This document shows positions 36,339-64,000 of a stretch of DNA of 64,000 nucleotides, piece by piece. Source of the DNA: Bryocella elongata (lineage in GTDB: Bacteria; Acidobacteriota; Terriglobia; Terriglobales; Acidobacteriaceae); assembly GCF_900108185.1 (NCBI RefSeq), contig NZ_FNVA01000001.1:1426001-1490000 (forward strand), given 5' to 3'. The translations under genes were made by a program, and so were the position numbers. Below the pieces are notes generated by a model, which worked only from the letters and a program-made list of their open reading frames with translations, did no database searches and was not told the DNA's origin. Each line of letters begins with the position of its first letter. The stretch's first letter is position 1.

Positions 36339-36348
36339 TGATACCTTT

Positions 36349-37764: not shown

Positions 37765-37791
37765 AGGCCTCCTGAGATTCCCTTCAAACGG

Positions 37792-39150
37792 CTAACGCTT
37801 CAGCTCGAGAAGGATGCAGCCGTGTGCTGGCAATGTCACGTTGATGGAGTCACTTCGCACGCGAGCTTCATTGGACCATAGCTCGCGGCTACTGTAGCTT
37901 CCCGGGGGAAGATTATAAAATCCGTAACTCCGGGCGATCGTCTTGTTCCCGTCATTCAGGTTGAACAACGCGAGGTACCGAACGCCATTCCTGCCAAGTG
38001 CAGTCCATGCGACCGTGTCCCCTTCCCGCGCTACCTGGCGTTGATCGTGGGCGTACTGATCGACCGCAATGACGTCTGCATTTGTCAGGAGGCCTGTCGT
38101 CCATTCATCCAGCCTGGTCAGGTTCGCGCCGATGATGAGGGGAGAACGCATCATGGCCCATAGTGTGACCATCGATCTCTGCTCGCCCGGTGTCAGACGC
38201 GTAGGTCGAGCCTCACCATCGCCCGGCTCAGGACCGAGATAGCCCACTGGAAGCATGTCCGCATCAGGCCATGCTCCTGCATGAGCATAGGGCGCCCACG
38301 CCGCCGCAAGCTCGAACTGATCGTGGACGCTGCGTGGTGCATGGCGCAGATTCTTCCAGAAGTCCCACACATCATCTGAGATCCGCCACATCTGCGCGTA
38401 CGGAATCAGCTCGTTCACGATTCCCGGAGAGGTCGGCCCAGGCGACAGACTAAGAATGATCGGACGGCCAGTCTTCACGATCGCATTGTGAATCATGTGA
38501 ATCTCGGCAGGCTTGTAAGGGTGATCGGAGATGCAGTCGACCTTGAGAAAATCGACGCCCCAATCGGCATACTGTGCAAGGAGCGCGTCGTACCAAGCCT
38601 GGCCCGCCGGTGTATCGCGAACTCCCCAGTTGGTCGGGTCCCAGGGGCAGGCGTCGGTTGTATCCGCAACATCCCTCGCGTGGAATCGACTGCCTGCCAC
38701 GGGAAGGTCCTGCCGCACAGCCTCTCTTGGGATCCCGCGGACAATGTGGATGCCAAACTTCAGTCCCTGCGCATGCACATAGTCCCCCAATGCGCGAAAG
38801 CCCTGATTCTTTCCATCGACAACGGCCGAAGGAAAGCGCTCAGGCACCGGGTTATAGCGGCCGTTCGCGTCGATCTCATAGATCGCTTTGCCAGGCGGTT
38901 TGAGATCGTGAGGATTCTTCAGGAACCAACCTTCATCGATAACCGCGTACTGCCAGCCGAAGGGTTTCAGCTTCGCTGCGAGCACGTTGACGTTCTCGCG
39001 AAATTGCGCCTCGGTGATGGTGAGTCCGTACGCATCCCAGCTATTCCAGCCCATCGGGGGGCGCGGCGCCAGGACGGATGGAGCCTGTGCCGGCGAGATG
39101 CCGGTCCCCCCAAAGAACATCATGAAGACAGCGACATACCAGAACCGCAA
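37792..39150 (-). CDS. GH27 alpha-galactosidase family protein, secreted
   Basis: About 452 residues. The frame opens at ATG 39180, but a TTG at 39150 sits five bases after GGAGGT and starts directly on a clean Sec signal (RFWYVAVFMMFFGGTGISPAQA), so I prefer it. Barrel motifs: RPPMGWNSWDAYG, WQYAVIDEGWF, the nucleophile in VDFLKVDCISD, the acid/base region MWRISDDVWDFW, and PDADMLPVG. A C-terminal beta-sandwich (LALFNLNDGNKTI) follows. It hydrolyses alpha-D-galactosides (some GH27 members act on alpha-N-acetylgalactosaminides or beta-L-arabinopyranosides). It is the first enzyme gene after TBDR2 and, unlike its downstream relative, is intact. Confidence 0.88.
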   Translation of the reverse strand: MRFWYVAVFMMFFGGTGISPAQAPSVLAPRPPMGWNSWDAYGLTITEAQFRENVNVLAAKLKPFGWQYAVIDEGWFLKNPHDLKPPGKAIYEIDANGRYNPVPERFPSAVVDGKNQGFRALGDYVHAQGLKFGIHIVRGIPREAVRQDLPVAGSRFHARDVADTTDACPWDPTNWGVRDTPAGQAWYDALLAQYADWGVDFLKVDCISDHPYKPAEIHMIHNAIVKTGRPIILSLSPGPTSPGIVNELIPYAQMWRISDDVWDFWKNLRHAPRSVHDQFELAAAWAPYAHAGAWPDADMLPVGYLGPEPGDGEARPTRLTPGEQRSMVTLWAMMRSPLIIGANLTRLDEWTTGLLTNADVIAVDQYAHDQRQVAREGDTVAWTALGRNGVRYLALFNLNDGNKTIARSYGFYNLPPGSYSSRELWSNEARVRSDSINVTLPAHGCILLELKR

Positions 39151-39234
39151 CCGGACCTCCGGAAGTCTTATAAGCAGCATCAATCGGAAAAAGTTCCCAG
39201 CGCGCGAGCCTCACGCGCTGGGATCGGAGAGATG

Positions 39235-49261: not shown

Positions 49262-52200
49262 ATGCGTCGTGGATCAATTCGTCAAGCGGTGTGGTCTGTC
49301 CTGACTTCGTTCATTGTGGCGCTCAGCATCGCACTCTCCGGGTGCAGCGGAGGCGGAGCTGTGGCGACGGTAAGCGTCAGCGCCACGGCATCGGCGACGA
49401 CCGTGGATGGCGGCGATGCGATCACGATCTCGGCGACAGTGACAAACGACAAGAACAGCGCGGGCGTGACGTGGACGACGAGCGCAGGCACGCTCTCGGG
49501 GACGACGACCAGCTCGGCAACGCTCACGGCTCCGGCGGCGACGAGCTCAGCGCAGACTGTCACCGTGACGGCAACCTCCATGACCGACACGACGAAGTCG
49601 GCGACGGTTACGCTGACCGTTCCGGCGGCGCCTTCGATCACAACGAGCACGCTAGCCTCGGGCACGGTGGGATCGGCGTACTCGGCAGCGCTGGCGGGCT
49701 CGGGTGGCCTCTCGCCGTACACGTGGGCGCTGACATCGGGCACGCTGCCGTCAGGGCTGAGCTTCACGGCATCGACCGGCACGATTACCGGAACGCCGAC
49801 GGCCACGGGCGCGGGGACAGCGAGCCTCTCGTTCAAGATGACGGATTCGGGCACGGCGACGGCGCTGACGGCGACCAAGACGCTGAGCCTGACGATCGCG
49901 CCGGCCGCAGCGATTACGTTCACCACGACGACGCTGGCAAATGCGACCTACAACACGGCCTATAGCGCAACGATTGCCACGGCGGGCGGCGCGGGGACGC
50001 TGACCTACTCGCTGGCTTCAGGATCGCTGCCGACGGGCTTGAGTCTTTCGACCGGCGGCGCACTGACGGGCACCCCGACGGCGGGTGGGAGCTTCAGCTT
50101 CTCGGTGAAAGCGGCGGACGCCTATGGCGATTCGGCGACACAGAGCTTCACGGTGACGGTGGTGTACCCGGCGCTGACGCTTAACCCGTCGACGACGGCG
50201 CTGGCGGCAACGGTGGGCAAGTCCTACAGCCAGAGCTTCACGGCCTCGGGCGGGGCGGGCACGGGCTTCACCTTCTCCATCACATCCGGAGCGTCGGCGC
50301 TGACGGCCGCCGGACTGAGCTTCTCCGGCAGCACGCTCTCGGGCACGCCGACCTCTGCGGCGACGATTCCCTTCACCATGCAAGTACTGGATTCGGCCTC
50401 GAACACGGCGTCGGTAGGCTACACGCTGACGATCAGCTACGCGGCGCTAACGATCTCACCGGCGACCCTGCCGAGCGCGGTGGTGAACTCGGCATACTCG
50501 CAGACGCTGACGGCCTCGGGCGGATCGGGCACAGGGTATACGTGGTCCGTAACAACGGGAGCGACGAGCCTGACAGCGGTGGGGCTCAGCTTGTCGGGCG
50601 GGGTCATCTCTGGAACGCCTACAAGTTCCGGCTCGGCAAGCTTCACGGCGCAGGTGAAGGACTCGGCATCGAATACGGCGTCGCAGAGCTACACGCTGAC
50701 GGTAAATGCGAGCCTGAGCGTAACCTCCGCGACGCTGCCGAGCGCGGTGGTGGGATCGGCGTATTCGACGACCCTGACGGCCACAGGCGGGTCGGGTTCA
50801 TACACCTGGGCGATTGCGAGCGGGAGCAGCGCACCGGCGGGGCTATCGTTGAGCACGGCGGGGGTGCTCAGCGGCACGCCGACGGTGGCTTCGGGCGGCG
50901 CAGCGACAACGTTCCAGGTGCAGGCGACGGACACGACCTCGCACACGGCGACGGGCACGCTGTCGATCACGATTAATCCTTCGTTAGGAATTGCGACTTC
51001 GACGACGCTGGCGAGCGGCTACGTGGGCACGGCATACTCGCAAACACTGGCGGCGAGCGGCGGGACCGGTGCGGGCTACAGCTGGTCGGTGGCGAGCGGT
51101 TCGTCACTGCCCTCCTGGGCGACCCTAACGAGCGGGGGCGCGCTCTCCGGCACACCGACAACAGCCGGCACGTACACGTTCACTCTGACAGTGACGGACT
51201 CCGGCTCGGACACGAACGCGGCACAATTCACACTGACGGTGAACGGCACGCTGGCGATTTCGACGACGTCGCTCTCGGCTGCCACCGTGGGGACGGCGTA
51301 CTCGCAGTCGATCGGCGCCTCAGGCGGAACGGGATCGGACGTCTTCAGCATCTCTTCGGGTTCGCTGCCCTCATGGGCGACCCTGAATACCTCGACAGGC
51401 AAGATCACGGGCACGCCGGGGAGCACGAATACGGGCTCCACGACGTTCACGGTGATGGTCGAGGACTCGGCTTCGCACACGGCGACGCAGAACTACACGC
51501 TGACGGTGTATGCGATCTTGGGAACGAATGACTCCTACCTCTCCGGGCACTATGCGTTCTACGCGACGGGCTGGGTGGACGGAACGAATGACGGGAATAC
51601 GTACAAGTCAGCGCTGGCGGGGAGCTTTGTCGCAGACGGCGCGGGCAACATCACCTCCGGCACGCTGGACTACAACGACGCTTCGGGCGGGCTGGCGGAG
51701 AGTGTGAGCCTGACCGGAACCTATGCCCTGCCCTCGACGAACCTTGGGCAAATGACGCTTTCGCTTAGCACCGGCAAGACGGTGGTGATCGCGTTCAACG
51801 CAGGCAACATCAACTCCGGCGTGGCGACAGCGGGCGACCTGATTCGCTTCGACGATACGTCGGGCATCGGCATAACGGGAGGCTCGCGGTTCTCGGGCGA
51901 GTTCGCGCAGCAGACGCTCACGGACTTCACGACCGCGAAGCTGGCCGGAGGTTATGTCTTCGGGCTGACGGGCGAGAGCTGCCCGCTGGGAGTCTCTGCG
52001 TGCAACAGTGCAACGGACCACGGACCACTGGCGACGGCGGGCGTGATGTCGCTCTCCGGTGCGGGGCTCGTTTCGAGCGGACAGCAGGACATCGCCAGCG
52101 GGACGAACGTGTATACGCTGGCCTCGTTCAGCGGGACCTATGGGACGCCGGACGCCTCCAACGGACGCGCCACGCTGACGCTGAGTGCAGGCAGCACGCT

Positions 52201-52999
52201 GCCGAGCTCGGATGCGAACATCTGGCCGCATGACTTCGTGATCTACATGGTGAACGCGACGAAGTTCTATGTGGTCTCGGTAGATTCGCACGCGAACTAC
52301 TCCCTGCTTGCGGGCAAGGCGGCGCAGCAGACGACGAGCTCGTTCACGACGTCCAACTTCAGCGGCAGCGCGGTGTTCTGGGGAGCGGCACCTTCGGACA
52401 ACTACATTGCAGCTTGGGGAACGTCAGCGGCGGTGTCGGGGTCGAACGCGATCGTGGGACGGACGGTGGCAACGACCTCCGGCACCACGCTCAGCGTGGT
52501 CTTCTACCAGAACCAGCAGGGGACGGTCTCTTCGCAGACGGGCTCGGGAACATATAGCGTGGCCTCGAACGGGCGCATGACGTTCACGGGTGTCGGTAGC
52601 AATCCTCCGATCTTCTATCTCTCCGGCACGAACACGGCGTATGCAGTAGAGACTGGACAGGAGCCGGGGGTACTTTACGTAGAGCCACAGACGGCGACGA
52701 CCCCGGGAAGCGGGACTTATGTCTTCGGGAACCTTAACGTGGTCCCGGAGGGTGGCGGATCGTTAGGTGCAGGCACGATCGGATCAGGGACGTTCGGCCT
52801 GACGACGGCGAACAGCGACTCGGGCGGCACGCTGCAGTGGAACCAGTCGGCCGCAGGCACGTATACGGTGGACGCGACCGGACTGCTCACGTTTAGCGAT
52901 GGTGGAACGGGCTACGTGATCTCAGCAACGAAGCTGATTCACATGGACGGCCCCGGGGCGAGCGGGGCTTCGCCTTCGGTGAGCGTAGTGCAGCAGTAG
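49262..52999 (+). CDS. Large Ig-repeat surface lipoprotein
   Basis: 1,245 residues from ATG 49262. The lipobox is LSIALSGC (Cys about 28). An Ig-like domain (VATVSVSATASATTVDGGDA) is followed by seven He_PIG-type putative Ig repeats of about 85-90 residues (residues ~115-760), each with the pattern VGSAYSxxLxASGGxGxYTWSxxSGxLPxGLSLSxxGxLSGTPT cut into sub-motifs. The last ~490 residues contain about four degenerate ~110-residue beta-rich units (YLSGHYAFYATGWVDGTND, GAGNITSGTLDYND, KLAGGYVFGLTG). No enzymatic motif is seen. An adhesin or matrix role is inferred from architecture. The gene is strongly GC- and Thr/Ser/Gly-biased, which creates long antisense frames. Confidence 0.85.
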   Translation: MRRGSIRQAVWSVLTSFIVALSIALSGCSGGGAVATVSVSATASATTVDGGDAITISATVTNDKNSAGVTWTTSAGTLSGTTTSSATLTAPAATSSAQTVTVTATSMTDTTKSATVTLTVPAAPSITTSTLASGTVGSAYSAALAGSGGLSPYTWALTSGTLPSGLSFTASTGTITGTPTATGAGTASLSFKMTDSGTATALTATKTLSLTIAPAAAITFTTTTLANATYNTAYSATIATAGGAGTLTYSLASGSLPTGLSLSTGGALTGTPTAGGSFSFSVKAADAYGDSATQSFTVTVVYPALTLNPSTTALAATVGKSYSQSFTASGGAGTGFTFSITSGASALTAAGLSFSGSTLSGTPTSAATIPFTMQVLDSASNTASVGYTLTISYAALTISPATLPSAVVNSAYSQTLTASGGSGTGYTWSVTTGATSLTAVGLSLSGGVISGTPTSSGSASFTAQVKDSASNTASQSYTLTVNASLSVTSATLPSAVVGSAYSTTLTATGGSGSYTWAIASGSSAPAGLSLSTAGVLSGTPTVASGGAATTFQVQATDTTSHTATGTLSITINPSLGIATSTTLASGYVGTAYSQTLAASGGTGAGYSWSVASGSSLPSWATLTSGGALSGTPTTAGTYTFTLTVTDSGSDTNAAQFTLTVNGTLAISTTSLSAATVGTAYSQSIGASGGTGSDVFSISSGSLPSWATLNTSTGKITGTPGSTNTGSTTFTVMVEDSASHTATQNYTLTVYAILGTNDSYLSGHYAFYATGWVDGTNDGNTYKSALAGSFVADGAGNITSGTLDYNDASGGLAESVSLTGTYALPSTNLGQMTLSLSTGKTVVIAFNAGNINSGVATAGDLIRFDDTSGIGITGGSRFSGEFAQQTLTDFTTAKLAGGYVFGLTGESCPLGVSACNSATDHGPLATAGVMSLSGAGLVSSGQQDIASGTNVYTLASFSGTYGTPDASNGRATLTLSAGSTLPSSDANIWPHDFVIYMVNATKFYVVSVDSHANYSLLAGKAAQQTTSSFTTSNFSGSAVFWGAAPSDNYIAAWGTSAAVSGSNAIVGRTVATTSGTTLSVVFYQNQQGTVSSQTGSGTYSVASNGRMTFTGVGSNPPIFYLSGTNTAYAVETGQEPGVLYVEPQTATTPGSGTYVFGNLNVVPEGGGSLGAGTIGSGTFGLTTANSDSGGTLQWNQSAAGTYTVDATGLLTFSDGGTGYVISATKLIHMDGPGASGASPSVSVVQQ
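49610..51510 (+). repeat. Seven tandem He_PIG-type Ig repeats (coding)
   Basis: Seven imperfect units of about 260-270 bp each encode a strand-rich domain with the recurring words YSQTLTASGG, TYTW and SGTPT. Similarity between neighbouring units is visible in the DNA (recurring gcgtactcgcag and ggcacgccgac words), suggesting past duplication. Confidence 0.75.
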
Positions 53000-53865: not shown

Positions 53866-54978
53866 CTAAGAGGACCTATCACGGTGCTCACCCTCGTGCC
53901 ATTCAGCGAGCTCGGCAGCCGTGAGAGGGAGCGGAAGAACCTGCCCGCGCGCGGCTGACTCAAATGACGCCTCGAGGATCGCCATCACAGCGATTGCATT
54001 CCCCACCGAAATGGGCGGCACTTGTCCCTTCAAGATCGCATCGCGAATTTGAATGTAATACCTGCGCTGTTCGCCGCGGGGCACAGGAATCGTGGTTCTA
54101 GTTCCCGTAGCGCCATCGACGAGAATCCCGGCATCGGGATCCACACCAAATCGAGGATCGTCAGGCAGCATCCCCTCCTTCAACTGCTGCTCCTGCACAT
54201 CGGCGCCATACTTCATCCAGCTGGCTCGCGTGCCATGAAGCATCGAACGCGGCCCGCCACCAGCCGCAAGCAACGTGCAATGCAGGACAACGCGCAGGTG
54301 ATCTTTGCCGTTACGTGTGTAATTCAACTGCACATGTGCCCAGTCGTCCGTCTGCCCGGCTGAACGAAGTGTCGCGATGCCCGCATTCACGGACTGCGGA
54401 AGGCCAAACAGGTGCAACGCCTGGTCGATCAAGTGTGGTCCGAGATCGAACCATAACCCCGCACCAGGCCCCGCCGATTCCCGCCAGCGCTCGCGAACGA
54501 CGGGGCGATAGCGGTCCATGTGGCACTCGTAGTGTGAGACCTCCCCAAGCGCCCCTGATTCCAGCATGGCCTTGGCGGCGAGCACCTCACTTTCCCATCG
54601 GCGATTATGAAACACCGAAAGAATGCGGCCATGCTGCCTGGCAATCTCCGCAAGGGAGCGCGCTTCCGCGAGAGTGATGGTGAAAGGTTTATCGACGACG
54701 ACATCTTTGTCCGCGCGGAGCGCCGTGGCCGCCAGCGCAAAATGACTCTCATTGGGTGTAGCAATTACAACCAGATCGACCGAGGGATGCGTCGCTGCGT
54801 CTTCCGCCGTACAAACGAGCGTGTCCGGGATGTCGGCATGCACAGCCTCGCTGCGGCTTGACCCCACTACCGCGAGCGCTAGCCCGGGAACCGACCGGAT
54901 CAGGGGAGCGTGATACACCTTTCCGGCAAAGCCATAACCAATCAACGCGACTCGGACTATTCGTTCTGTTGCGCTCAT
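53866..54978 (-). CDS. Gfo/Idh/MocA family NAD(P)-dependent oxidoreductase
   Basis: 370 residues. The Rossmann domain opens RVALIGYGFAGKVYHAPLI, with the cofactor-contact motif VIATPNESH and the catalytic-lysine segment VVDKPFTITLAEA (the EKP position reads DKP). The C-terminal alpha/beta domain contains WFDLGPHLIDQALHLFG, with the usual Asp/His pair. These enzymes oxidise or reduce sugars and cyclitols in the cytoplasm; no signal peptide is present. It is monocistronic, divergent from the flavin oxidase gene. Substrate unknown. Confidence 0.9.
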   Translation of the reverse strand: MSATERIVRVALIGYGFAGKVYHAPLIRSVPGLALAVVGSSRSEAVHADIPDTLVCTAEDAATHPSVDLVVIATPNESHFALAATALRADKDVVVDKPFTITLAEARSLAEIARQHGRILSVFHNRRWESEVLAAKAMLESGALGEVSHYECHMDRYRPVVRERWRESAGPGAGLWFDLGPHLIDQALHLFGLPQSVNAGIATLRSAGQTDDWAHVQLNYTRNGKDHLRVVLHCTLLAAGGGPRSMLHGTRASWMKYGADVQEQQLKEGMLPDDPRFGVDPDAGILVDGATGTRTTIPVPRGEQRRYYIQIRDAILKGQVPPISVGNAIAVMAILEASFESAARGQVLPLPLTAAELAEWHEGEHRDRSS

Positions 54979-55283: not shown

Positions 55284-56834
55284 ATGGCGATCGTAGTTTC
55301 CAGGCACGACTCCCGGTATCAGACGCTCAAACAAGGCCAGAACCTCCGCTGGCCCTCAGTCGAGGCCAACGCAGCTGCACGTATTGTCTTGTGTGAAAAC
55401 GCTGCCGACGCTGCGGACGCACTGCAGGCCATAGTAAGCGAGGGCGTACGCCCTACTGTGCGCAGCGGAGGACATTGCTACGAGGACTTCGTTGTAAATA
55501 ACCCTGCCGGTGCCATACTTGACCTGAGCCTCATGTCGACGGTGGGAAAACGCAGCGGCGAGTCTGTCTATAGGATCGGTCCCGGGGCGCAGCTTTGGAA
55601 CGCTTACTCCGAACTCTACAAGCGCTATGGGGCAACGTTGCCCGCAGGCACCTGCGGCACTGTAGGAGCTGGCGGCCACATCACAGGCGGCGGCTATGGT
55701 CTGCTGTCGCGGCTGCATGGCTTGTCCTGCGACTGGCTCTCAGCGGTCGACATTCTCACCGTCGACGCGAAAGGCACGGTAGTTCCACGAACAGCCAGCG
55801 CACACCGCGATGCCGACCTGTTTCGCGCCTGCCGTGGCGGTGGTGGTGGCAACTTTGGAGTAATCACAAGTTATGTCTTCGATGAGCTGCCGCAGGCTCC
55901 TGCTGAGGTGATCGAGGCGCATGTCCGCTTCATCTGGAGCGACACGACGGTCGAGCGATTCGTGCGAATCATGAAGACCTTTGGTGACTACTGGGAGACC
56001 CGAGGGCAGGCCCCCGATACCTGGGGTATGTTTGCTGTACTCACCGTTGCCCATCACTCGAACCCGGGCTTCGGCATGTCGGTGCAGTTCTGTAATCCAG
56101 ACGGCACATGCAATGATCTGACCGTCTTGAATGACTATCTTGATCTCTTCGCGCAATGCGGCGGTGTGACGACGACCACCGCACCGAAGACAACACATGG
56201 CCAGCCCTCAGGCGGCAAAGCAGCGACACCGCGGGACCCCACAGAAGCCGTCTGCCTCGGCGTGCATACCGTCAGACGGACCAGCTGGCTCTATGCAACG
56301 GCAACCGAAGCCGGAGGACCAGGAAGGTTGCGGGGTAAGTACAAATCGGTCTACATGAAGCGCGGGTTCACCGAAGCCGAGGCACGATGCATCTACAAGC
56401 ACATGCATCGAACGGCAGGCAGCATCGATCTGAAAGCTTCTATGGTGGAGATCGATTCCTATGGTGGCGCGATCAATCGCCCAGGCTTCGCAAACACCAC
56501 GGCAATGGCGCAACGTTCGTCGGTCATTAAGATGCAACCTATGACTTTCTGGAGCGATGCCGAGGACGATGCGGCCCACAGCACATGGCTCAATGACTTC
56601 TACACCGAACTCTACTCAGGACCGGACTCCGACCCCCTGCATCCTGGGACGCCCTTTCCAGGACCACGCTACGAAGGCTGTTACATCAACTACCCGGACA
56701 AGGAGATGTTGGCCTATCCCTACTGGCCGCAGCTTTACTACGGCGTCGAAGGACTCTATCCATTCCTGCAGGCTGTCAAGCGGAAGTACGACCCCAACAA
56801 CATCTTTCACCATGCGATGTCGATACGAAACTAG
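55284..56834 (+). CDS. FAD-linked oxidase, BBE type, bicovalent flavin (oligosaccharide oxidase-like)
   Basis: 516 residues. The PCMH-type FAD domain shows [17 protein letters not shown] with His64 and [20 protein letters not shown] with Cys124. His and Cys at these sites form the 8-alpha-histidyl, 6-S-cysteinyl bicovalent FAD of glucooligosaccharide oxidases and other berberine-bridge-like enzymes. The C-terminus has the BBE signature ([23 protein letters not shown]). A stop codon three codons upstream fixes the start near 55284, and no signal peptide is visible. It is followed after 11 bp by a Tat-type lactonase-like gene. Oxidation of a sugar to a lactone that the neighbour then opens is the simplest joint role (inference). 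Confidence 0.85.
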
Positions 56835-56845
56835 GCGAGGCGGAT

Positions 56846-58021
56846 ATGTTCGAGCATGAGCCGTGGAACCGCCGAAGGTTTTTGCAAGCATCTCTCACTC
56901 TGCCGGCAAGCAGGTACACGCGCCTCTTACATGGGGCCCTTCTCTCACAAGACATGACAGCAGTCCTTCCACACGTTGCGTTCCTCGGTACTACGGGAGA
57001 ATCCCCGGGCATTCATGTATATCGCGCGGATGGCCAACGATGGATTTTGCAACAGGCAATCGCAACCAAAGCACCCGTTTCGCTTGCCCTACACCCCGAT
57101 GGACGCATGCTCTACGTCCTCCAGGAGTTGAGCGAGTGGGAAGGGCTGCCTCGTGGTGCTGTTGAAACCTTCCAAGTCGAGACTTCGACGGGCAAACTGA
57201 GGTCTTTGGGATGTCAAGGGCTATCGCTCTCGGCCATCATGCCGCGACACCTCGCAGTCTCTCCCGATGGAACGGCCCTTGTGGTTGCCGTGCAAGGAGG
57301 GGGAGCCTACAACCTCCTTCCCATCGGCGTTGACGGTCAACTAGGTACAGTACGCAGCATTGTGAAGGAGACCGGGTGCGGGCCGGACGCGCAACATCAG
57401 GGAAGTGCCCGCCCTCAAACAGTTCTATTTGACCGGAATGGACACGTGATTACCGCAGACATGGGTAGCGATCGTCTGACGGTCTTTGGATACGATGCCG
57501 GGCTACGAACGCTGTCCAGGCATCTTCTTCCAGCTGGCAGCGGGCCTCGGCATCTCGCGTTGCATCCCTCCTCGCGCCGGCTCTATGTCGCCAACGTACT
57601 TAGCAGTTCGATCATTGGGTTGCACTACGACGCCCACGCTGGTGTGATTCGGGATCAATTCGTGCAATCCTGCGAAGGCTACGGCGAGACATTGGCGATT
57701 CATCCCAGCAGCGACACTCTTTACTCGTCAAGGGGAGATGAGATCGCCGCGTGGAGGATCGCCCCAGCGACAGGCATGCTTTCCGTGAAGCAGAGGACGA
57801 GAATGGCAGCGACGGTGGTGCATGAATTGATTGCGTCTGCGGAAGGACAAGCACTGATTGCCGTAACCTCCTGCGGCGTGGCGCGGATCCGCGTCGACAG
57901 TACGACAGGCGCTCTCGGCAATCTTGTCAGCATTACACCCATGGCGGCCACGCGTTGCTTCACGATGAAGCCTTTGGATACGATCGGAGCACCTCAGCTT
58001 CCAAGCATGCAGCATCGCTGA
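56846..58021 (+). CDS. 6-phosphogluconolactonase-like seven-bladed propeller lactonase, Tat-exported
   Basis: 391 residues. The N-terminus has a twin-arginine motif (WNRRRFLQASLTLPAS) shortly after ATG 56846. The body consists of propeller blades of the YkgB/Pgl type (VSLALHPDGRMLYVLQELSE, RHLAVSPDGTALVVAVQGGG, GPRHLALHPSSRRLYVANVL), where the blade-end residues form the active site of bacterial 6-phosphogluconolactonase. A secreted member probably acts on unphosphorylated aldonolactones. It directly follows the flavin oxidase gene, which could generate such lactones. Confidence 0.82.
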   Translation: MFEHEPWNRRRFLQASLTLPASRYTRLLHGALLSQDMTAVLPHVAFLGTTGESPGIHVYRADGQRWILQQAIATKAPVSLALHPDGRMLYVLQELSEWEGLPRGAVETFQVETSTGKLRSLGCQGLSLSAIMPRHLAVSPDGTALVVAVQGGGAYNLLPIGVDGQLGTVRSIVKETGCGPDAQHQGSARPQTVLFDRNGHVITADMGSDRLTVFGYDAGLRTLSRHLLPAGSGPRHLALHPSSRRLYVANVLSSSIIGLHYDAHAGVIRDQFVQSCEGYGETLAIHPSSDTLYSSRGDEIAAWRIAPATGMLSVKQRTRMAATVVHELIASAEGQALIAVTSCGVARIRVDSTTGALGNLVSITPMAATRCFTMKPLDTIGAPQLPSMQHR

Positions 58022-58104: not shown

Positions 58105-59481
58105 CTAGTGTTCTGTGGAGCCCGCCTTCCCTGTCGGCGCTGCATGTGGCGCGAATGTCGTCCAGCGTGACGCCACACTATCATGCGGTCCAGCCGGCTG
58201 ATTCCATAACGAGGTACCCAGACCGTTCAGGTTATAGACAATCTTGCCGTCCTTCAACGTAAGTTCACAAACCAGCCTCTTCGTGCCATTGAGCCGTTTG
58301 TTGTCCATGTCAGTGAACCCGAACTTCCCGTTCTCCATACGCAATACTGCGATGTCGGCAATGGAGCCCTCCGAGAGATTGCCGAGCTCCTCATGTTTGA
58401 TCTCTCGGGCCGGATGCGAAGTCATCTCCGCAACGACTTCTTTGAGCGGCACACCCAATGCAAGGATCTTGTCTGCTACATTCAACTCGTCCTTCATCGC
58501 AGCGTTCATGCTCGTCACATGAATATCGGTCGAGATCGAGTCCGGGATGAAGCCGTCCTTGATCATCGGCTCCGCAAGCGCCCAACGGAAGCTCCCGCCA
58601 CCATGGCCCACGTCAAAGTAGATGCCCCGCTTGCGGCCTGCGATCATTCCACGGCTCGGACCGAGCGTCGTCAGGTCTTGTTCGTGCCTCAATCCCGAAT
58701 ACATATGCGTGTAGATATCACCAGGCCGCAACTTTTCGGTCATTAGATCGTAGATGGGTCGGCTAGGCCAATCGACGCCAAAGTCCACCATCACCGGAAT
58801 GTTTGCGTGGGTGCCTGCGATAACGGCCTGCTCCACGGGAGTCCATTGCGGACCGGCGAAATGCGCCGTCTTGATCCCAACGATTATCTGTGGATACTTC
58901 AGCGCCATGGTCGCGGTCGCCTCTCCATCCATATCAGCCATGTTCTGCTCGTAGGCATCGCCGCGCATACCGGAACCCACGATATTCAGCATCGCAAAGA
59001 CACGTGTCTTCGAACGGTCGATAATGCGCTGTTTGAAATCCTCAAAATTGCGCCATCCGGAGCATCCCGCATCGACAACCGTCGTCACGCCGACTCGGAA
59101 GGTGAATCCATCTGGAGGCACACTGTTATCGCCTGCATAGGAGTTTCGTTCTCCCGTCCCCGCATATACATGGACATGGATATCGATCAGTCCCGGAGTC
59201 ACATAGAGTCCCTTCACATCGATCGTCTTGAGTGCATCGGCGGGGGAAATGTGCGGTGCAACTCTTGCGATCTTGCCATCCTTGACCGCAACATCCATCA
59301 AGGAGTCGATATGGTTTTTATCATCGAGCACATGCCCTCCTCGCAATAACAAGTCATAGACCGGTTGCGGTACCGCTCGTGTCTGGGCGATTCCATTTGT
59401 GCCTGGTAACGTACCTAGAACCATTGCGCAAGCTGCAAAACCAGCTACACATAACTCTTTGCGAAAGAGTCCCATCATCAT
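58105..59481 (-). CDS. Amidohydrolase/deacetylase-family metallohydrolase, exported
   Basis: About 458 residues from the ATG cluster 59475-59481, directly after a GGGGG-rich site; the frame opens earlier at 59559 but without family sequence. A Sec signal (CVAGFAACAMVLGTLPGTNGIAQ) precedes the two-part beta-sandwich/TIM-barrel amidohydrolase fold. The metal site HVH is in LIDIHVHVYAG, a likely carboxylated Lys is in IVGIKTAHF, and His is in DVGHGGGSF and ISTDIHVTSM. The segment VMVDFGVDW has Asp where related enzymes often carry a metal-binding His. The closest known group (Atu3266/EF0837-type) removes acyl groups from N- or O-acylated acids. It is the last gene of a five-gene operon with two SelA-like enzymes, RidA and RraA. 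Confidence 0.82.
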   Translation of the reverse strand: MMMGLFRKELCVAGFAACAMVLGTLPGTNGIAQTRAVPQPVYDLLLRGGHVLDDKNHIDSLMDVAVKDGKIARVAPHISPADALKTIDVKGLYVTPGLIDIHVHVYAGTGERNSYAGDNSVPPDGFTFRVGVTTVVDAGCSGWRNFEDFKQRIIDRSKTRVFAMLNIVGSGMRGDAYEQNMADMDGEATATMALKYPQIIVGIKTAHFAGPQWTPVEQAVIAGTHANIPVMVDFGVDWPSRPIYDLMTEKLRPGDIYTHMYSGLRHEQDLTTLGPSRGMIAGRKRGIYFDVGHGGGSFRWALAEPMIKDGFIPDSISTDIHVTSMNAAMKDELNVADKILALGVPLKEVVAEMTSHPAREIKHEELGNLSEGSIADIAVLRMENGKFGFTDMDNKRLNGTKRLVCELTLKDGKIVYNLNGLGTSLWNQPAGPHDSVASRWTTFAPHAAPTGKAGSTEH

Positions 59482-59605
59482 CCCCCAATCCGTGCGCCGA
59501 GGCGCAGGTATGCATCGAGCGCTCGCCATCAGAAGCGGCGGCGCCCTCGTTGCAATCACTCACCGACCGCGCCCTTCACAGACAGCGCGACGGTGAACTA
59601 CTTCC

Positions 59606-61222
59606 CTAAGCTCTCGTAGCCTTCCAGGTGGCCTTCCCGTACTCACCGAGGTCGACCGCACCAGACATCGAGTTCCCTGTTACCTTCCCTTTGAAGGTCC
59701 AGTTGATCTCGTTGCCGGGGACAGCCATCTGACTTCTCAGTTCGATCTCATCGGCGTGAATAGCGCCCTTGAGTGCGGCCGTGTACATCTCTCCCGATTG
59801 TGTCCCGTGGAGTTCGTTGCCGTTCTGCTCTATCGCGAAATGCTGCTCGCCCACACCGCGCGTGTACTGAATGGAGACCGCCCACTTCCCTTGCACACGC
59901 TCCGGTGCTCCGGTTGGAATGGCAGGGTCTTCATAGTGGCCGGGGTTCGTCAGCGCCTCAAAGATTGCGTCCGCGATGATGTGCTCTTCACCGGCATCCA
60001 TCATGTACGGCATGATGGTGAGCGAGCTTGCCATGTGATCTGGTCTGGTCCCACTGCCTCCGTCAACAAGGATGCGCGGCGTTCCTGCATCGAGACGGGC
60101 AACTAACTCCGTGCCTGTAATCTTTAGCTGCGAGGCATCCCAATGCAGGCGAAGACGAGGTGACCGATTTGAGAGGTCCTCAGGCTGCAGGTACTCTGCG
60201 GTGACAGACGGCAGCCCCTTCACGCGATCTGCGATGTACTGCAGCCATGAAAGCCACATGCGCTGTTCAGCATCGTGGTCGCGTTTGTACCACTGGCGCA
60301 CTGCAGCGAGCAGCCCCATCGCCTCTTCCTTGCTGCACTTGAAGGCCCGGCCATAGTTGTGGTGCGGCGCGGCCTGGAAGTACGCTGCACGACAAAGATC
60401 CTTCTGCCCAATCAGCATTCCGGAGGACTGCGGTCCGCGCATGCACTTGCCGCCGGAGTAACCCACCAGCGTGGCACCATGTCGGAGATGGATGTTCGGA
60501 ACCAGCGGCTCCTCTGCAGCCGCGTCCACAAAGACGGGAATCTGGTGCTCTCGTGCGATCGCACAGATGTTGGGAATGCTCAACGGCCCCGTCTCCGCCG
60601 CGGGACTGGAGAGGATGTAGATCATTGCCGTACGCGTCGAGATCTTGTTCTTCAACTCCTCGGCAGAAGCTACCTCCACGACCTCCGCACCGGTCATGCG
60701 CACACCAAAATCATAAGGATTGCGTGAGTGCTTCGGAATGATGACCTGGTCACGCTCTCTGCGGTATGGCAGAGCCTGCGACCTCTCGGGGTCCGTGCCA
60801 ACGGTGCATGCCACGGTGGCCAGCGCAATCGCAGCTTCGCAACCGGTCGTCGCGATTCCCCACTCCGCCCCGGTCAGTTGCCCGAGCTCCTTGCCGATCG
60901 CGTCCATCATCTCGTCAAGATGCACAAAGTAGAAGGACGCCTCGTACATGGCCTGCTTCACCTGCGGCAACGATCGCGACCCACTGATGATTGTGAACGT
61001 GCCGTGCGCGTTGATAATGGGCCGCACGCCAATCTGCGTGAACAGATTATTCATCTCGGTGCCCTTCCGAGCTGGCAGCATTACGCCAGACGGGCCCTGA
61101 GCCTGCGACATGGCGCCTGCGGCCAACGGAGAGATGGCGGTAGCGGCGCTGGCGGCGGACAAGAGCCCCGATTGCTTGAGAACCTCGCGCCGTGACCAGC
61201 GCGCCTTACGAAAAATAGACAT
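59606..61222 (-). CDS. SelA-like PLP-dependent enzyme with extra C-terminal beta domain, Tat-exported (copy A)
   Basis: 538 residues. Twin-arginine signal (WSRREVLKQSGLLSAASAAT). The fold-type I PLP domain matches the selenocysteine-synthase-like branch, which includes D-glucosaminate-6-phosphate ammonia-lyase: TTGCEAAIALATVAC (phosphate site), PVFVDAAAEEPL (PLP-pairing Asp) and the Schiff-base Lys259 in VGYSGGKCMRGPQSSG. The last ~85 residues (EQHFAIEQNGNELHG, INWTFKGKVTGNSMSGAVDL) are an added beta-rich domain absent from copy B. It is not a selenocysteine synthase: it is exported and sits in a catabolic operon. An ammonia-eliminating reaction on a 2-amino acid or amino-sugar acid is the best guess. 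Confidence 0.82.
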   Translation of the reverse strand: MSIFRKARWSRREVLKQSGLLSAASAATAISPLAAGAMSQAQGPSGVMLPARKGTEMNNLFTQIGVRPIINAHGTFTIISGSRSLPQVKQAMYEASFYFVHLDEMMDAIGKELGQLTGAEWGIATTGCEAAIALATVACTVGTDPERSQALPYRRERDQVIIPKHSRNPYDFGVRMTGAEVVEVASAEELKNKISTRTAMIYILSSPAAETGPLSIPNICAIAREHQIPVFVDAAAEEPLVPNIHLRHGATLVGYSGGKCMRGPQSSGMLIGQKDLCRAAYFQAAPHHNYGRAFKCSKEEAMGLLAAVRQWYKRDHDAEQRMWLSWLQYIADRVKGLPSVTAEYLQPEDLSNRSPRLRLHWDASQLKITGTELVARLDAGTPRILVDGGSGTRPDHMASSLTIMPYMMDAGEEHIIADAIFEALTNPGHYEDPAIPTGAPERVQGKWAVSIQYTRGVGEQHFAIEQNGNELHGTQSGEMYTAALKGAIHADEIELRSQMAVPGNEINWTFKGKVTGNSMSGAVDLGEYGKATWKATRA

Positions 61223-61312
61223 AAACTCGTCTCTCCCAATCGTTGCGATGGGGTGATGGGTTCTTACGGATGAGGCCAGTACCGGTAGGCACTCTTACCG
61301 GCACATCGGAAG

Positions 61313-61795
61313 CTAGATGTAGGCGATCAGATCAATCTCTACGAGTGAGTTGCCTGGGATGCCCCCCGCTGGAGCGATCGTCGTTCGGACCGGAGGCACC
61401 TTCCCCCAGCGTCCCGCGTAAACAGTGTTCATCTTCTCCCAGTCGTTAATGTCGTTCAGGTAGACGTTGACCTTGAGGACCTTCTCCATAGAGGATCCGG
61501 CACCGATAAGGTTCTTCTCCAACTCGTCGAGAACATGCTTGGTGTGCTCTTCGATCGTTCCCTTGAAGTGCGCACCGACGCCTGCGAGAAAGAGCAGGTT
61601 GCCATAAGAAACGGCACTGGAAAACAGCGGTGGAGCGGCGCTAGCATTGTCAGCGTTCTTTTTCACCGGATACGATTTCTTCTCAAGCTTCCCTGTCGTC
61701 TGGGCCACAGCCGGCTCAACGACAGTCACACCAGTGACGGCCACTGCAGCGGATGCTGCGTTCATAAGAAGACTTCTTCTGGACTGCTTAGACAT
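61313..61795 (-). CDS. RidA/YjgF-family enamine/imine deaminase, Tat-exported
   Basis: 160 residues. The N-terminus MSKQSRRSLLMNAASAAVAV is a twin-arginine signal, and the Rid domain (about 40-160) follows: LFSSAVSYGNLLFLAGVGAH, VLKVNVYLNDINDWEKMNTV, PPVRTTIAPAGGIPGNSLVE, DLIAYI. The Arg in PPVRTT is the substrate-carboxylate Arg of active RidA. RidA hydrolyses enamines and imines released by PLP dehydratases; here it lies between two PLP-enzyme genes. Exported Rid proteins are unusual. AAGGGAG precedes ATG 61795. Confidence 0.88.
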   Translation of the reverse strand: MSKQSRRSLLMNAASAAVAVTGVTVVEPAVAQTTGKLEKKSYPVKKNADNASAAPPLFSSAVSYGNLLFLAGVGAHFKGTIEEHTKHVLDELEKNLIGAGSSMEKVLKVNVYLNDINDWEKMNTVYAGRWGKVPPVRTTIAPAGGIPGNSLVEIDLIAYI

Positions 61796-61848
61796 GGGAC
61801 AGACTCCCTTTCACGATCATTGAAGTACCACCGGCACCGTCCACCGGC

Positions 61849-63159
61849 TCACAGTTGAAGTTGAGGTTGAGTCAACGCAGCACGTAGCCGACGACCGACG
61901 ATCTCGTCCTCACCGGGCTGCAGCATCCAAGTGCCAATAACAATGGTGTTCTCGTTGGAGTGAGTACCGAGGCGCCCGGTGGTTCCAGTCGCGGGATTGA
62001 GCTCAATCTGTGGACGTTCTTTGCGTAAACGCTCCTGCACCTGGAGCGGAGTAATGCCAACTACCTTGGGATCGTAGGAGAGAATCAGGTGGGGCACGTG
62101 GTTAGCGATCTCAGGCATGAAAATCTCCGATCTAAGTGTCGGCACGTCCTTCACCAGCTGAAGGATCACATTGGCGCGGCGCATGTATTCGACCTGATTG
62201 GCCGCATCATCCTGCTCCAGTAGCCAGTCGACCGCCGCGACCATCCCAACTATCTGCTCCTTGGCCACCTTCATCCCTCGACCGACGGCATCAGAGTTAG
62301 GGCTATCGTTAAGCATTGCCAGCCCGATCAGGTGTTTCTTGCCTAACAGCAGACCAGCGTTCTGCGGCCCACGAATTCCCTTCCCTCCGGAGAAGCACAC
62401 AAGGTCATATCCCATACCGGTGTACTTCCACAGGTTCTCGATCGGGGGCATGTCGGCGGCGGCATCCATGTGACAGGGCACATTGTGCTTGTGGGCCACG
62501 TCGAGCCAGGTCTTTCGATCAATCCGGCCACCTTCAGCAGAGTTGAAGAAATTGGTCATGACCGTGTTCGGGGTGAATGCACGCTCATAGTCTTCAAGCG
62601 TGACAACCTCAACGATGCGCACACCACACAGCAGCATCGCGTGGTCATACTCATAGCGATGCGACTTTTGGACGATGACCTCGCTCCGTGGTAAGACCTC
62701 TGATGGAATATGCTCCGGAGCGGCGCCGGTAGAGGATGCCATGCAAGCGGCGGTCGCCAGCGTCAACGCAGCCGACGCACCTGACGTCACCAAGGCAGCC
62801 TCGCAGCGCAGCCGCTTGGCGATGTACTCTCCGGAGGCACGTTGCAAGTCCTTCAGCACCACAGGATGCAGCGCAGCCTGTGCTACCGCACGCTGCACCT
62901 GCGGCGGCATAACGGCCGCGGTGAGATAGGTGTAGGTCCCCGCCGCGTTGATAATCTTCTCGACGCCGAGCTTCTCATAGTAGTCATCTGCTGTCCCGGA
63001 AGCAGCCGGCGCATGCCCCCTCCCCATGCCCACGGGGCCCTCCGCCGATGCCTTCGTCGGCGCGGACAGCGGACTTAGTCCGAAAGCCGCAAGCATCGCC
63101 TGTGACCATCCGATAAAACGGCGACGCGTCAATATCCCCGTTGGCTCAAACTTCGACAT
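61849..63159 (-). CDS. SelA-like PLP-dependent enzyme, Tat-exported (copy B)
   Basis: 436 residues from ATG 63159 (GGAG nine bases upstream; in-frame ATGs at 63174 and 63168 are also possible). Twin-arginine signal ILTRRRFIGWSQAMLAAFG. PLP-domain motifs: INAAGTYTYLTAAVMP, LVTSGASAALTLATAAC, VPCHMDAAADMPP (PLP Asp) and Schiff-base Lys in CFSGGKGIRGPQNAG (about residue 260). It lacks the extra C-terminal domain of copy A, with which it shares the GGK-x-x-RGPQ core. It lies between RraA and RidA genes. Confidence 0.82.
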   Translation of the reverse strand: MSKFEPTGILTRRRFIGWSQAMLAAFGLSPLSAPTKASAEGPVGMGRGHAPAASGTADDYYEKLGVEKIINAAGTYTYLTAAVMPPQVQRAVAQAALHPVVLKDLQRASGEYIAKRLRCEAALVTSGASAALTLATAACMASSTGAAPEHIPSEVLPRSEVIVQKSHRYEYDHAMLLCGVRIVEVVTLEDYERAFTPNTVMTNFFNSAEGGRIDRKTWLDVAHKHNVPCHMDAAADMPPIENLWKYTGMGYDLVCFSGGKGIRGPQNAGLLLGKKHLIGLAMLNDSPNSDAVGRGMKVAKEQIVGMVAAVDWLLEQDDAANQVEYMRRANVILQLVKDVPTLRSEIFMPEIANHVPHLILSYDPKVVGITPLQVQERLRKERPQIELNPATGTTGRLGTHSNENTIVIGTWMLQPGEDEIVGRRLRAALTQPQLQL

Positions 63160-63232
63160 CCCTGCCATCTCCAATTCTGCTCTGCGAAGTGCTGGCTCAA
63201 TGCGATCACTACGGTCGATGAGCGAGCGGTAT

Positions 63233-63997
63233 CTAGATCCTTCCGAACTGCTTTACTGCGTCCACAATGGAGTGGGCTTTTTCGATGAAGGGGTACATGG
63301 CGTGCTCGCTGTAATCGAGTTGCTGCGCACGGATCAACACTTCAGCGGCGTGCTCGCGCGGTACGACAACAACACCGTCCTGATCGGCCACGACGATATC
63401 GTTGGCGTTCACCTGAACGCTTCCGCAATCGACCGGGACATTGACGCCGGCGAAGCGATAGTGCCCCACCGAAGTCGAAGGCACAGCGCCCGTCGAGTAC
63501 ACGGGAAATCCAATGCGCTTGAGTTGTGCGACATCGCGAACTCCGCCATCGACCACGGCCCCCGCAAAACCACGCGCCGACATCGCTGTTCCCATCAAGC
63601 CACCCATGCCCGCGATGTCGACGCCGTCCTCCACCTGCATGACATAGACCGCCCCAGGCCCGCCACTATCAATGGCCTGAAGCATTCCGCCGAGAGCATC
63701 GGGATCCTGGTTCTCCTGCTTGATGAGCTTGACTGTAAGTGCCACTCCAGCGAACTTCGTGGGGAAGATGGCTTCCATGCGGTGCGACATATAGTGCTTT
63801 TCGTGGAGCAATTGCTCCATCGCATCCGATACCGACGCAGCCTCCACATGGCGGTACGCCTCCAGCATCTCGGATGGATGTTCTTTGTACTCCACTGCAG
63901 TTCTCGGCGTATCAGCCAGGACAATGTGTGTTGCGACCGCAAGCGGCAGGCCCATCACGGCGATCAATACAACGTTGCGAGCTTGACGAAGTGGCAC
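63233..63997 (-). CDS. RraA-family aldolase-like protein, exported
   Basis: 254 residues visible. The GTG at 63997 is the last codon but one before the window edge, so a slightly earlier start is possible. The first ~28 residues (NVVLIAVMGLPLAVATHIVL) form a Sec signal. The RraA/HMG-aldolase fold shows ASVSDAMEQLL, the signature GLMGTAMSARGFAGAVVDGG and the Arg-Asp pair in GGVRDVAQLK, then VADQDGVVVVPREHA. Members cleave 4-hydroxy-4-methyl-2-oxo acids or decarboxylate oxaloacetate with a divalent metal; the E. coli RraA RNase E inhibitor is a different use of the fold. It heads the visible part of a five-gene exported-enzyme operon. Confidence 0.85.
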   Translation of the reverse strand: MPLRQARNVVLIAVMGLPLAVATHIVLADTPRTAVEYKEHPSEMLEAYRHVEAASVSDAMEQLLHEKHYMSHRMEAIFPTKFAGVALTVKLIKQENQDPDALGGMLQAIDSGGPGAVYVMQVEDGVDIAGMGGLMGTAMSARGFAGAVVDGGVRDVAQLKRIGFPVYSTGAVPSTSVGHYRFAGVNVPVDCGSVQVNANDIVVADQDGVVVVPREHAAEVLIRAQQLDYSEHAMYPFIEKAHSIVDAVKQFGRI

Positions 63998-64000
63998 GAG

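Follow-up and report, generated by a model that had tools for sequence, protein, structure and literature searches.

An operon with export-type leaders in Bryocella elongata, apparently for degradation of oxidised amino sugars outside the cytoplasm

PvdN is a PLP enzyme exported via Tat. Among described systems that resemble the locus analyzed here, the ong pathway of Pseudoalteromonas prydzensis (oxidative chitin use) acts on non-phosphorylated GlcNAc1A by means of a deacetylase, a PLP deaminase, a RidA protein, TonB-dependent receptors and an inner-membrane transporter; its RidA, OngD, is required for growth on GlcNAc1A, with a role stated as unknown in the available text of PMC9537276. The N-acetyl-D-hexosamine (HexNAc) oxidase of R. 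solanacearum (A3RXB7; structure 7ZZK) converts GlcNAc to the lactone by oxidation at C1, and its affinity is highest for GlcNAc and GalNAc; the accessible part of the paper reports no pathway for this enzyme (PMC9299179), whereas here a similar oxidase adjoins a lactonase and an operon of exported type. The lyase DgaE acts on a substrate phosphorylated upon uptake by the PTS, and its His-163 protonates the enamine, which goes free in the DGL H163A mutant (PMC9529869, in excerpt). Cap15 (8T7J; Streptomyces, capuramycin) is an oxygen-using alpha-amino acid monooxygenase-decarboxylase of antibiotic biosynthesis, with a beta-hydroxy-alpha-amino acid as substrate (PMC7497351, in the portions available). 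Literature on exported RidA, on DgaE with amidohydrolase or RraA, on cog3964 enzymes and on oxidised GlcNAc (mostly titles and abstract openings) contained no description of the present gene set.

The locus lies on contig NZ_FNVA01000001.1 of the soil acidobacterium Bryocella elongata, in a window (the whole stretch of DNA analyzed) of 64,000 nucleotides. The initial annotation had named five adjacent minus-strand genes (RraA-like, PLP1, RidA, PLP2 and amidohydrolase; Table 1), all with export-type leaders and three of these Tat-like, and both statements were confirmed by eye and by heuristic scoring. The genes are separated by gaps of 53-124 bases; no terminator-like sites were found in these gaps on the coding strand, and the sole nearby minus-strand site of this kind lies inside RidA. 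This layout is consistent with a single, presumably co-transcribed operon. Upstream are a TonB-dependent receptor, a response regulator and a sensor kinase (named by reading translations), as well as an MFS transporter resembling D-galactonate transporters (205 bits, below the cut-off of 395); downstream, in convergent orientation, are the oxidase and the lactonase. The set was thus not complete as first described, since the leaderless oxidase, the lactonase, the receptor, the two-component system and the MFS transporter had been missed.

Table 1. Features of the locus, with positions counted from the first base of the window.
Feature	Position	Strand	Leader and remarks
RraA-like (PF03737)	63233..64009 (63233..64000 inside window)	-	Sec-type leader; start 9 bases past window end
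PLP1, DgaE/SelA-like PLP enzyme	61849 to 63159 or 63168	-	RR leader; without long C-terminal extension
RidA	61313..61795	-	RR leader
PLP2, DgaE/SelA-like PLP enzyme	59606..61222	-	RR leader
PLP2 C-terminal 8-stranded beta-barrel domain, ~100 residues	59609..59911	-	
Amidohydrolase/deacetylase, PRK09237 type	58105 to about 59481	-	Sec-type leader
FAD oxidase, close match to N-acetyl-D-hexosamine oxidase 7ZZK	55284..56834	+	Without leader
Lactonase, 7-bladed beta-propeller	56846..58021	+	RR leader; 11 bases past oxidase
GFO/IDH/MocA oxidoreductase (PRK11579), candidate member, membership uncertain	53866..54978	-	

Oxidised amino sugars (e.g., chitin-derived) are apparently degraded outside the cytoplasm by this operon. 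More specifically, we propose, with a confidence only slightly on the favorable side, that the locus serves the catabolism of N-acetylhexosamines (GlcNAc, GalNAc) in oxidised, non-phosphorylated form, and that the acetyl group and then ammonia are, as predicted from the leaders, removed outside the cytoplasm. The closest described pathway, ong, differs in several respects. According to the available text of PMC9537276, OngB and OngC are predicted to be cytoplasmic, OngB is D-aminoacylase-like, and the pathway's single PLP enzyme is accompanied by a KDG kinase and the repressor OngR. The B. elongata locus, in contrast, has export-type leaders (heuristic), a PRK09237-type amidohydrolase, two DgaE-like proteins (set beside OngC by description only), an RraA-like protein and a HexNAc oxidase. 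Against D-aminoacylase entries, with OngB itself outside the alignment, the amidohydrolase scored only ~30 bits over some 64 residues.

PLP1 and PLP2 share with DgaE (PMC9529869, in excerpt) a SelA-like fold (fold match Z 37.4 for PLP2) and the PLP lysine, but true DgaE identity was rejected, with three defining features lacking. Both fall short of the curated cut-off of TIGR01437 'DgaE family' (155 and 161 bits, respectively, vs. 385.3) and lie far below a second DgaE cut-off (117 and 145 bits vs. 600); true SelA identity was likewise rejected (just 20-30 bits). The PLP lysine is kept in all 181 exported-type proteins (near-duplicates included; clustering at 99% identity reduces the full 196 proteins to 189, and the two locus sets overlap) and in all 15 others, while His-163 is found in 0/181. 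His-162 and His-163 are both present in 14 of the 15 Pseudomonadota DgaE-like proteins, which represent 15 of 22 matches above 300 bits (9/9 mid-scoring, 6/13 over the cut-off); in the tree, one split accounts for this contrast, which thus counts as one event. DgaE Arg-332 and Arg-346 (phosphate site) are mostly replaced in exported-type proteins, and the Arg-cluster positions read R/D/Y in PLP2 and H/N/W in PLP1, although Arg-346 is not strictly diagnostic, being Cys also in 9/15 His-bearing proteins. Thus, the exported enzymes mostly do without both the His-162/163 pair and the Arg cluster of DgaE, and an exported RidA may take the place of the His-163 step. The two enzymes differ in a C-terminal tail, which measures 98-126 residues in 115/118 PLP2-type proteins and at most 31 residues in 62/63 PLP1-type proteins; the PLP2 barrel formed only weak fold matches (best E 1.8e-3).

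The absence of His-163 from the exported group would also suit another chemistry, that of Cap15: PLP1, PLP2 or both would use oxygen together with PLP to convert a beta-hydroxy-alpha-amino acid, and RidA would remove the imines that this oxidation produces. Cap15 ties with DgaE as the top fold match of PLP2 (Z 37.6, rmsd 2.6, 349 aligned, 28% identity in the structural alignment vs. Z 37.4, rmsd 2.4, 355 aligned) and exceeds it on PLP1 sequence (93 vs. 82 bits). We nevertheless consider this decidedly improbable, as PLP2 is slightly nearer to DgaE by sequence (119 vs. 110 bits), and RraA and the aldonate-type transporter fit a 2-oxo acid product.

Leaders were called by eye and by an ad hoc heuristic scorer (threshold 2.6), which is permissive. 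The twin arginines of PLP1 (LTRRRFIGW...), PLP2 (WSRREVLKQ...) and RidA (QSRRSLLMN...) were read directly as Tat-like, and the leaders of the RraA-like protein and the amidohydrolase were likewise read as Sec-like; for the latter, a longer upstream start scored 'Tat', and the ATG cluster 59475-59481 was preferred as the start. Failed signal predictions for most members would have refuted the initial annotation; instead, most of the homologues scored were predicted to carry leaders (heuristic only): RidA 75/83, PLP1-type 46/63, PLP2-type 78/113, amidohydrolase 55/62 and RraA 36/37. Among the controls, response regulators (0/24), HexNAc-oxidase homologues (0/9), galactarate dehydratases (0/8) and glucarate dehydratases (0/4) were uniformly leader-negative, and positives appeared among SDR proteins (2/12), rhamnonate-dehydratase-like proteins (3/11, a cluster including RR-leader proteins) and all called genes in the loci (720/1677). 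Of the two groups of His-bearing DgaE-like proteins, one scored 0/7 (6 above the DgaE cut-off, 1 below) and the other 5/8; the PRK09237 amidohydrolases from loci of His-bearing DgaE also scored 0/7, unlike the exported one of the window. The conserved RR motif is stronger evidence of export than the permissive score, and the conserved export-type leaders would place the enzyme set in the periplasm. The idea that the Tat route serves PLP loading before export agrees with the Tat-type leaders of the PLP enzymes; it does not extend to RidA, which has no cofactor, so PLP loading cannot account for its Tat-type leader.

The partner enzymes are assigned at family level. RidA passes PF01042 (67.7 bits, cut-off 27.3) and misses TIGR00004 (61 vs. 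106 bits); Arg and Glu, which we take to be the Rid active-site residues, are each kept in 81/83 homologues. The amidohydrolase passes the curated PRK09237 cut-off (415 vs. 371 bits) and has the same metal ligands as PRK09237 amidohydrolases (relatives 2OGJ, 2ICS, 8WZY and 8JE0); the HxH, Lys, His and Asp that presumably constitute these ligands are kept in 63-65 of 66 homologues, and a further His, present in the window, in only 33/66. The RraA-like protein matches PF03737 (127 bits), the Arg-Asp of its GVRD motif being kept in 37/37 homologues, but belongs to the broad family only, at 103 bits (cut-off 179) and 92 bits (cut-off 304.5) against named aldolase models; identity with the RNase regulator RraA was rejected (23-58 bits against RraA models, below cut-offs, and a leader present).

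Neighborhood comparison, the other test named in the initial annotation as able to refute it, showed that these genes are conserved together. Close relatives of the window RidA occurred in 29 sampled Acidobacteriota genomes from 10 families, all 29 of which also carry DgaE-like genes, at most 5 kb away in 26; the RidA cut of 95 bits was set after inspecting the matches (gap between 97 and 80 bits), and without it the overlap with the DgaE-like set is 30/34 genomes. The draws comprised 396 genomes for the DgaE search and 392 for the RidA search, and all 46 genomes with DgaE-like matches were assumed to be in the latter; exported-type RidA is missing from 17 of these 46, three of which (G184, G310, G389) hold weak or broken matches. 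At the level of single genes, RidA lies within 3 kb of only 99/181 lyases of the exported clade. Both shortfalls weigh against the proposed route. RidA-lyase-amidohydrolase trios are also present in contigs labelled Alphaproteobacteria, and 8/9 trio loci labelled Alphaproteobacteria or Rhizobium hold a sugar-acid dehydratase cluster of rhamnonate, galactarate or glucarate type (at least one per locus within the stretch, with one representative per cluster family-searched). The stretches retrieved cover 60 places and pass over weaker or second copies (e.g., all from G008, G044, G066, G069, G080, G090, G184, G310 and G389), and 80 of 515 relatives were kept. Co-occurrence across 10 families and in second-phylum contigs speaks against chance juxtaposition and supports the earlier view of RidA as a partner of an exported-type PLP enzyme.

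The oxidase aligns with 7ZZK over its full length at 675 bits, well above other BBE-type oxidases (next-best entry 258 bits), a similarity that identifies it by sequence as a putative N-acetyl-D-hexosamine oxidase. Homologues occur in 17/396 genomes, 14 of which hold the cluster, at most 15 kb apart in 10/14 and not near it in 4/14 (distances read by eye). In L271, L272 and L289, the oxidase-lactonase pair likewise has a GFO/IDH/MocA-like ORF (recognised by eye) as its neighbor. A Pseudomonadota search found oxidases in 2/398 genomes, both ~40% identical; the one fetched (L287) adjoins galactonate genes and gives only indirect support. Taken as a separate neighbor, the oxidase-lactonase pair would leave the exported enzymes free to deacylate and deaminate substrates other than amino-sugar acids, either N-acyl (D-)amino acids or a different beta-hydroxy-alpha-amino acid. 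This accords with the presence of the oxidase in just 11/146 exported-type loci (within the stretch fetched) and its distance from the cluster in the four genomes above, with the breadth of the amidohydrolase group (best solved relatives named dihydroorotase, amidase and adenine deaminase) and with the suitability of serine- or threonine-like substrates for RidA and PLP elimination. On balance, however, we regard it as unlikely, given that the oxidase is linked in several arrangements (oxidase-lactonase-PLP2 on one strand in L131 and L132; amidohydrolase-oxidase in L282), that sugar-acid dehydratases adjoin the second-phylum trios and that the closest lyase of known reaction is DgaE. Of the two substrate classes first suggested, the amino-sugar acid is supported; the 7ZZK-like neighbor makes an N-acetyl aldonate more probable than an N-acyl amino acid.

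For the proposed N-acetylhexosamine route, the order of events would be as follows. The TonB-dependent receptor would take the substrate across the outer membrane; the HexNAc oxidase would oxidise C1 to the lactone and the lactonase open the ring (alternatively, an already oxidised sugar would be taken up). The exported amidohydrolase would then deacetylate the N-acetylhexosaminate, and the DgaE-like enzymes would eliminate water, then ammonia, from the hexosaminate toward a 2-keto-3-deoxy sugar acid. Exported RidA would hydrolyse the freed enamine/imine, a step controlled internally by His-163 in DgaE. Finally, the product would undergo aldol cleavage by RraA, be imported by the MFS transporter, or both. 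The oxidase, having no leader, should be cytoplasmic unless carried out with the Tat-type lactonase. A bolder version, in which His-less lyases and exported RidA split elimination from enamine hydrolysis and the oxidase exits folded with the lactonase to form a whole extracytoplasmic pathway, is in our estimate possible but rather doubtful. NagA is present above cut-off in the genome, and a phosphorylated GlcNAc route may coexist; NagB was not found above cut-off in this genome. Both observations would also fit the same chemistry used for detoxification or cell-envelope recycling (e.g., of peptidoglycan or of polysaccharide made by the cell itself) rather than growth, as would the reported link of R. 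solanacearum oxidase expression to exopolysaccharide and quorum sensing (PMC9299179, accessible part); we give this little credence, as the conserved block also holds a TonB-dependent receptor, a sensor kinase, a regulator and an MFS transporter.

Overall, the N-acetylhexosamine reading makes the locus a testable setting for two questions left open in the available text of the respective reports, the purpose of the N-acetyl-D-hexosamine oxidase (PMC9299179) and the essential role of Rid in oxidised-GlcNAc catabolism (PMC9537276). If true, a whole extracytoplasmic pathway would give the HexNAc oxidase its first role and explain why there are Rid proteins of the OngD type. The exported set also suggests extracytoplasmic handling of reactive enamines, as well as an oxidised, non-phosphorylated route by which some soil Acidobacteriota may exploit amino sugars of the chitin type.

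Translation and family matches recovered five open reading frames corresponding to the five adjacent minus-strand genes claimed in the initial annotation, namely an RraA-like protein, two DgaE/SelA-like PLP enzymes (PLP1 and PLP2) separated by RidA, and a PRK09237-type amidohydrolase. The source genome (5.67 Mb, 98.9% complete) has Edaphobacter, Acidicapsa and Granulicella as the named organisms among its closest relatives (80 of 515 relatives kept), which suggests that it belongs to the Acidobacteriaceae. Flanking genes, including those read from L008, a stretch reaching beyond the window, are listed in the table together with other features of the window.

Coordinates and neighbors of the five-gene set (first L008 receptor, regulator and kinase, and the last two rows, named from translations)
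Feature	Location	Strand	Remarks
RraA-PLP1-RidA-PLP2-amidohydrolase	window 58105 to 64009	minus	RraA start 9 bases past the window end
TonB-dependent receptor	L008, beyond window	same as five genes	
NarL-type response regulator	L008, beyond window	same as five genes	
Sensor kinase	L008, beyond window	same as five genes	
MFS transporter	L008, beyond window	same as five genes	D-galactonate transporter model nearest (205 bits, cut-off 395)
Second TonB-dependent receptor	L008 16408-19776		past MFS gene; 208 bits to first receptor
FAD oxidase	window 55284..56834	plus	with lactonase, convergent with amidohydrolase
RR-leader lactonase	window 56846..58021	plus	
Two GH27-like glycosidases flanking a GH28-like (pectin-type) frame	window 35130-39183		adjoining TonB-dependent receptor; putative second glycan-use block of the window
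1245-residue protein	window 49262-52999		many Ig-like (SGTPT) repeat units after lipoprotein-like leader

Export leaders, judged by eye and with our own heuristic scorer, are of a conserved RR type in the PLP enzymes and RidA and mainly of Sec type in RraA and the amidohydrolase; of the genome's other RidA copies, the two that were clearly readable (stretches L002 and L004) have no leader. Expected-cytoplasmic control groups scored nil in six cases (0/24 response regulators, 0/9 HexNAc-oxidase-like proteins, 0/8, 0/7, 0/7 and 0/4). The scorer is nevertheless permissive, since three other such groups gave positives (5/8 for one of two groups of His-bearing DgaE-like proteins, 3/11 for rhamnonate-dehydratase-like proteins, 2/12 for SDR proteins) and 720 of the 1677 genes called in the loci passed it.

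The gene order MFS-kinase-regulator-receptor-RraA-PLP1-RidA-PLP2-amidohydrolase is repeated within the same family. Among 146 loci with an exported-type DgaE, counted over the fetched stretch only, with many loci being short contigs, RidA was present in 73, the amidohydrolase in 62, a receptor relative in 43, RraA in 37 and the oxidase in 11. At the genome level, DgaE-like matches occur in 46/396 genomes and close RidA relatives (≥95 bits) in 29/392; all 29 of the latter, spanning 10 families, also carry a DgaE-like match (Fisher p ~3e-32, kinship ignored), within 5 kb of the RidA gene in 26, while 17 of the 46 have no RidA relative at that threshold. Nine of the 80 relatives kept are loci titled Alphaproteobacteria or Rhizobium, all from MAGs (L110, L111, L113, L115, L116, L118, L120, L121, L123), and each contains RidA, PLP2 and the amidohydrolase, a trio that looks like the minimal unit. 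Loci L055, L056, L119 and L129 carry, near the main cluster, an additional exported DgaE-like gene of more remote similarity (198-215 bits), flanked by an MFS copy and an amidohydrolase gene; these may represent a duplicate of the module that serves a different substrate.

The structure model of PLP2 (mean pLDDT 92.5) matches Cap15 (Z 37.6) and DgaE (DGL; Z 37.4) equally, followed by SelA at 25 to 26; of the matches to its C-terminal 8-stranded barrel (pLDDT 92.7) in the loci, 116/117 fall inside DgaE-like frames. According to the published DGL study, His-163 is the donor for enamine protonation, and the H163A variant retains activity and releases the enamine, with a reported transient near 293 nm (PMC9529869). 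Across 196 aligned DgaE-like proteins, His-163 occurs in 14/15 Pseudomonadota vs. 0/181 exported-type proteins, and a RidA gene lies within 3 kb of 1/15 His-bearing-group vs. 99/181 exported-type proteins. This His-163 difference amounts to a single contrast, because it maps to just one branch in a tree of 195 proteins, where the His-bearing group falls together (15/15, support 1.0), as do the PLP2-type proteins (118/118, support 0.995), PLP1-type proteins being split (53/62). The proton donor could be other residues, e.g., the His pair 233-234, invariant in PLP2. Phosphate-site residues Arg-332 and Arg-346 are mostly substituted in exported-type proteins, as would be expected of a route lacking a kinase or PTS step; Arg-301 is retained in 42/118 PLP2-type proteins (including that of the window), and position 113 is Arg in 179/181 exported-type proteins vs. 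0/15 others.

The initial observation proved real in its five reading frames, its conserved leaders (by heuristic) and its conserved gene set, and a substrate clue is added by the oxidase, which matches N-acetyl-D-hexosamine oxidase (PDB 7ZZK) over its full length at 675 bits (next entry 258). The R. solanacearum enzyme converts GlcNAc to the lactone, and its affinity is greatest for GlcNAc and GalNAc; its homologues of at least 50% identity are reported to belong to Acidobacteriales and Burkholderiales, and its function is described as unclear (PMC9299179). The adjoining lactonase scores 62-68 bits against 6-phosphogluconolactonase-like proteins and PpgL, a periplasmic gluconolactonase. Oxidase homologues (E ≤1e-60) occur in 17/396 genomes, 14 of which have the cluster, within 15 kb of it in 10/14 and not in genomes G036, G061, G195 and G297; G103, a genome of the same family with the cluster, has no oxidase homologue, and no PLP1-type gene was seen in it. 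In the window the oxidase-lactonase pair borders the amidohydrolase end of the block, whereas L271, L272 and L289 have it at the transporter end and L131 and L132 have it ahead of PLP2, all on one strand; in L282 an amidohydrolase homologue (PRK09237, 409 bits) immediately precedes an oxidase; this varied placement argues for a shared function. Since the oxidase has no leader, oxidation may take place inside or on sugar that has been imported, or the oxidase may be co-exported with the lactonase. The two lyases may, as a guess, serve gluco and galacto epimers. A 40% identical HexNAc-oxidase-like gene in a Pseudomonadota genome (L287 4054-10131) neighbors a galactonate dehydratase (708 bits), KDPGal aldolase (303) and D-galactonate transporter (416).

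No HexNAc-type oxidase was found in the nine alphaproteobacterial trio loci, where gene clusters were typed from one representative each. Their neighbors again point to sugar acids: genes for L-rhamnonate dehydratase-like (6), galactarate (7) and glucarate (5) dehydratases, a GMC oxidoreductase in 7/9 and, in 4/9, a gene resembling PQQ dehydrogenases (341 bits, cut-off 833), with none of these in L110. In five of the loci (L113, L118, L120, L121, L123) the trio comes after a siderophore-type TonB-dependent receptor (that of L118 reaching 311 bits against Fiu, under the cut-off), an Fe(II) dioxygenase (typed in L113) and a membrane protein that matched no family; these trios may have a connection with iron uptake.

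The source genome also encodes KDPG aldolase and NagA, with no NagB over cut-off, the sole match scoring as 6-phosphogluconolactonase. We infer every reaction assigned to the locus. Overall, the locus reads as an exported form of an already described type of pathway, with N-acetylhexosamines as a plausible substrate.
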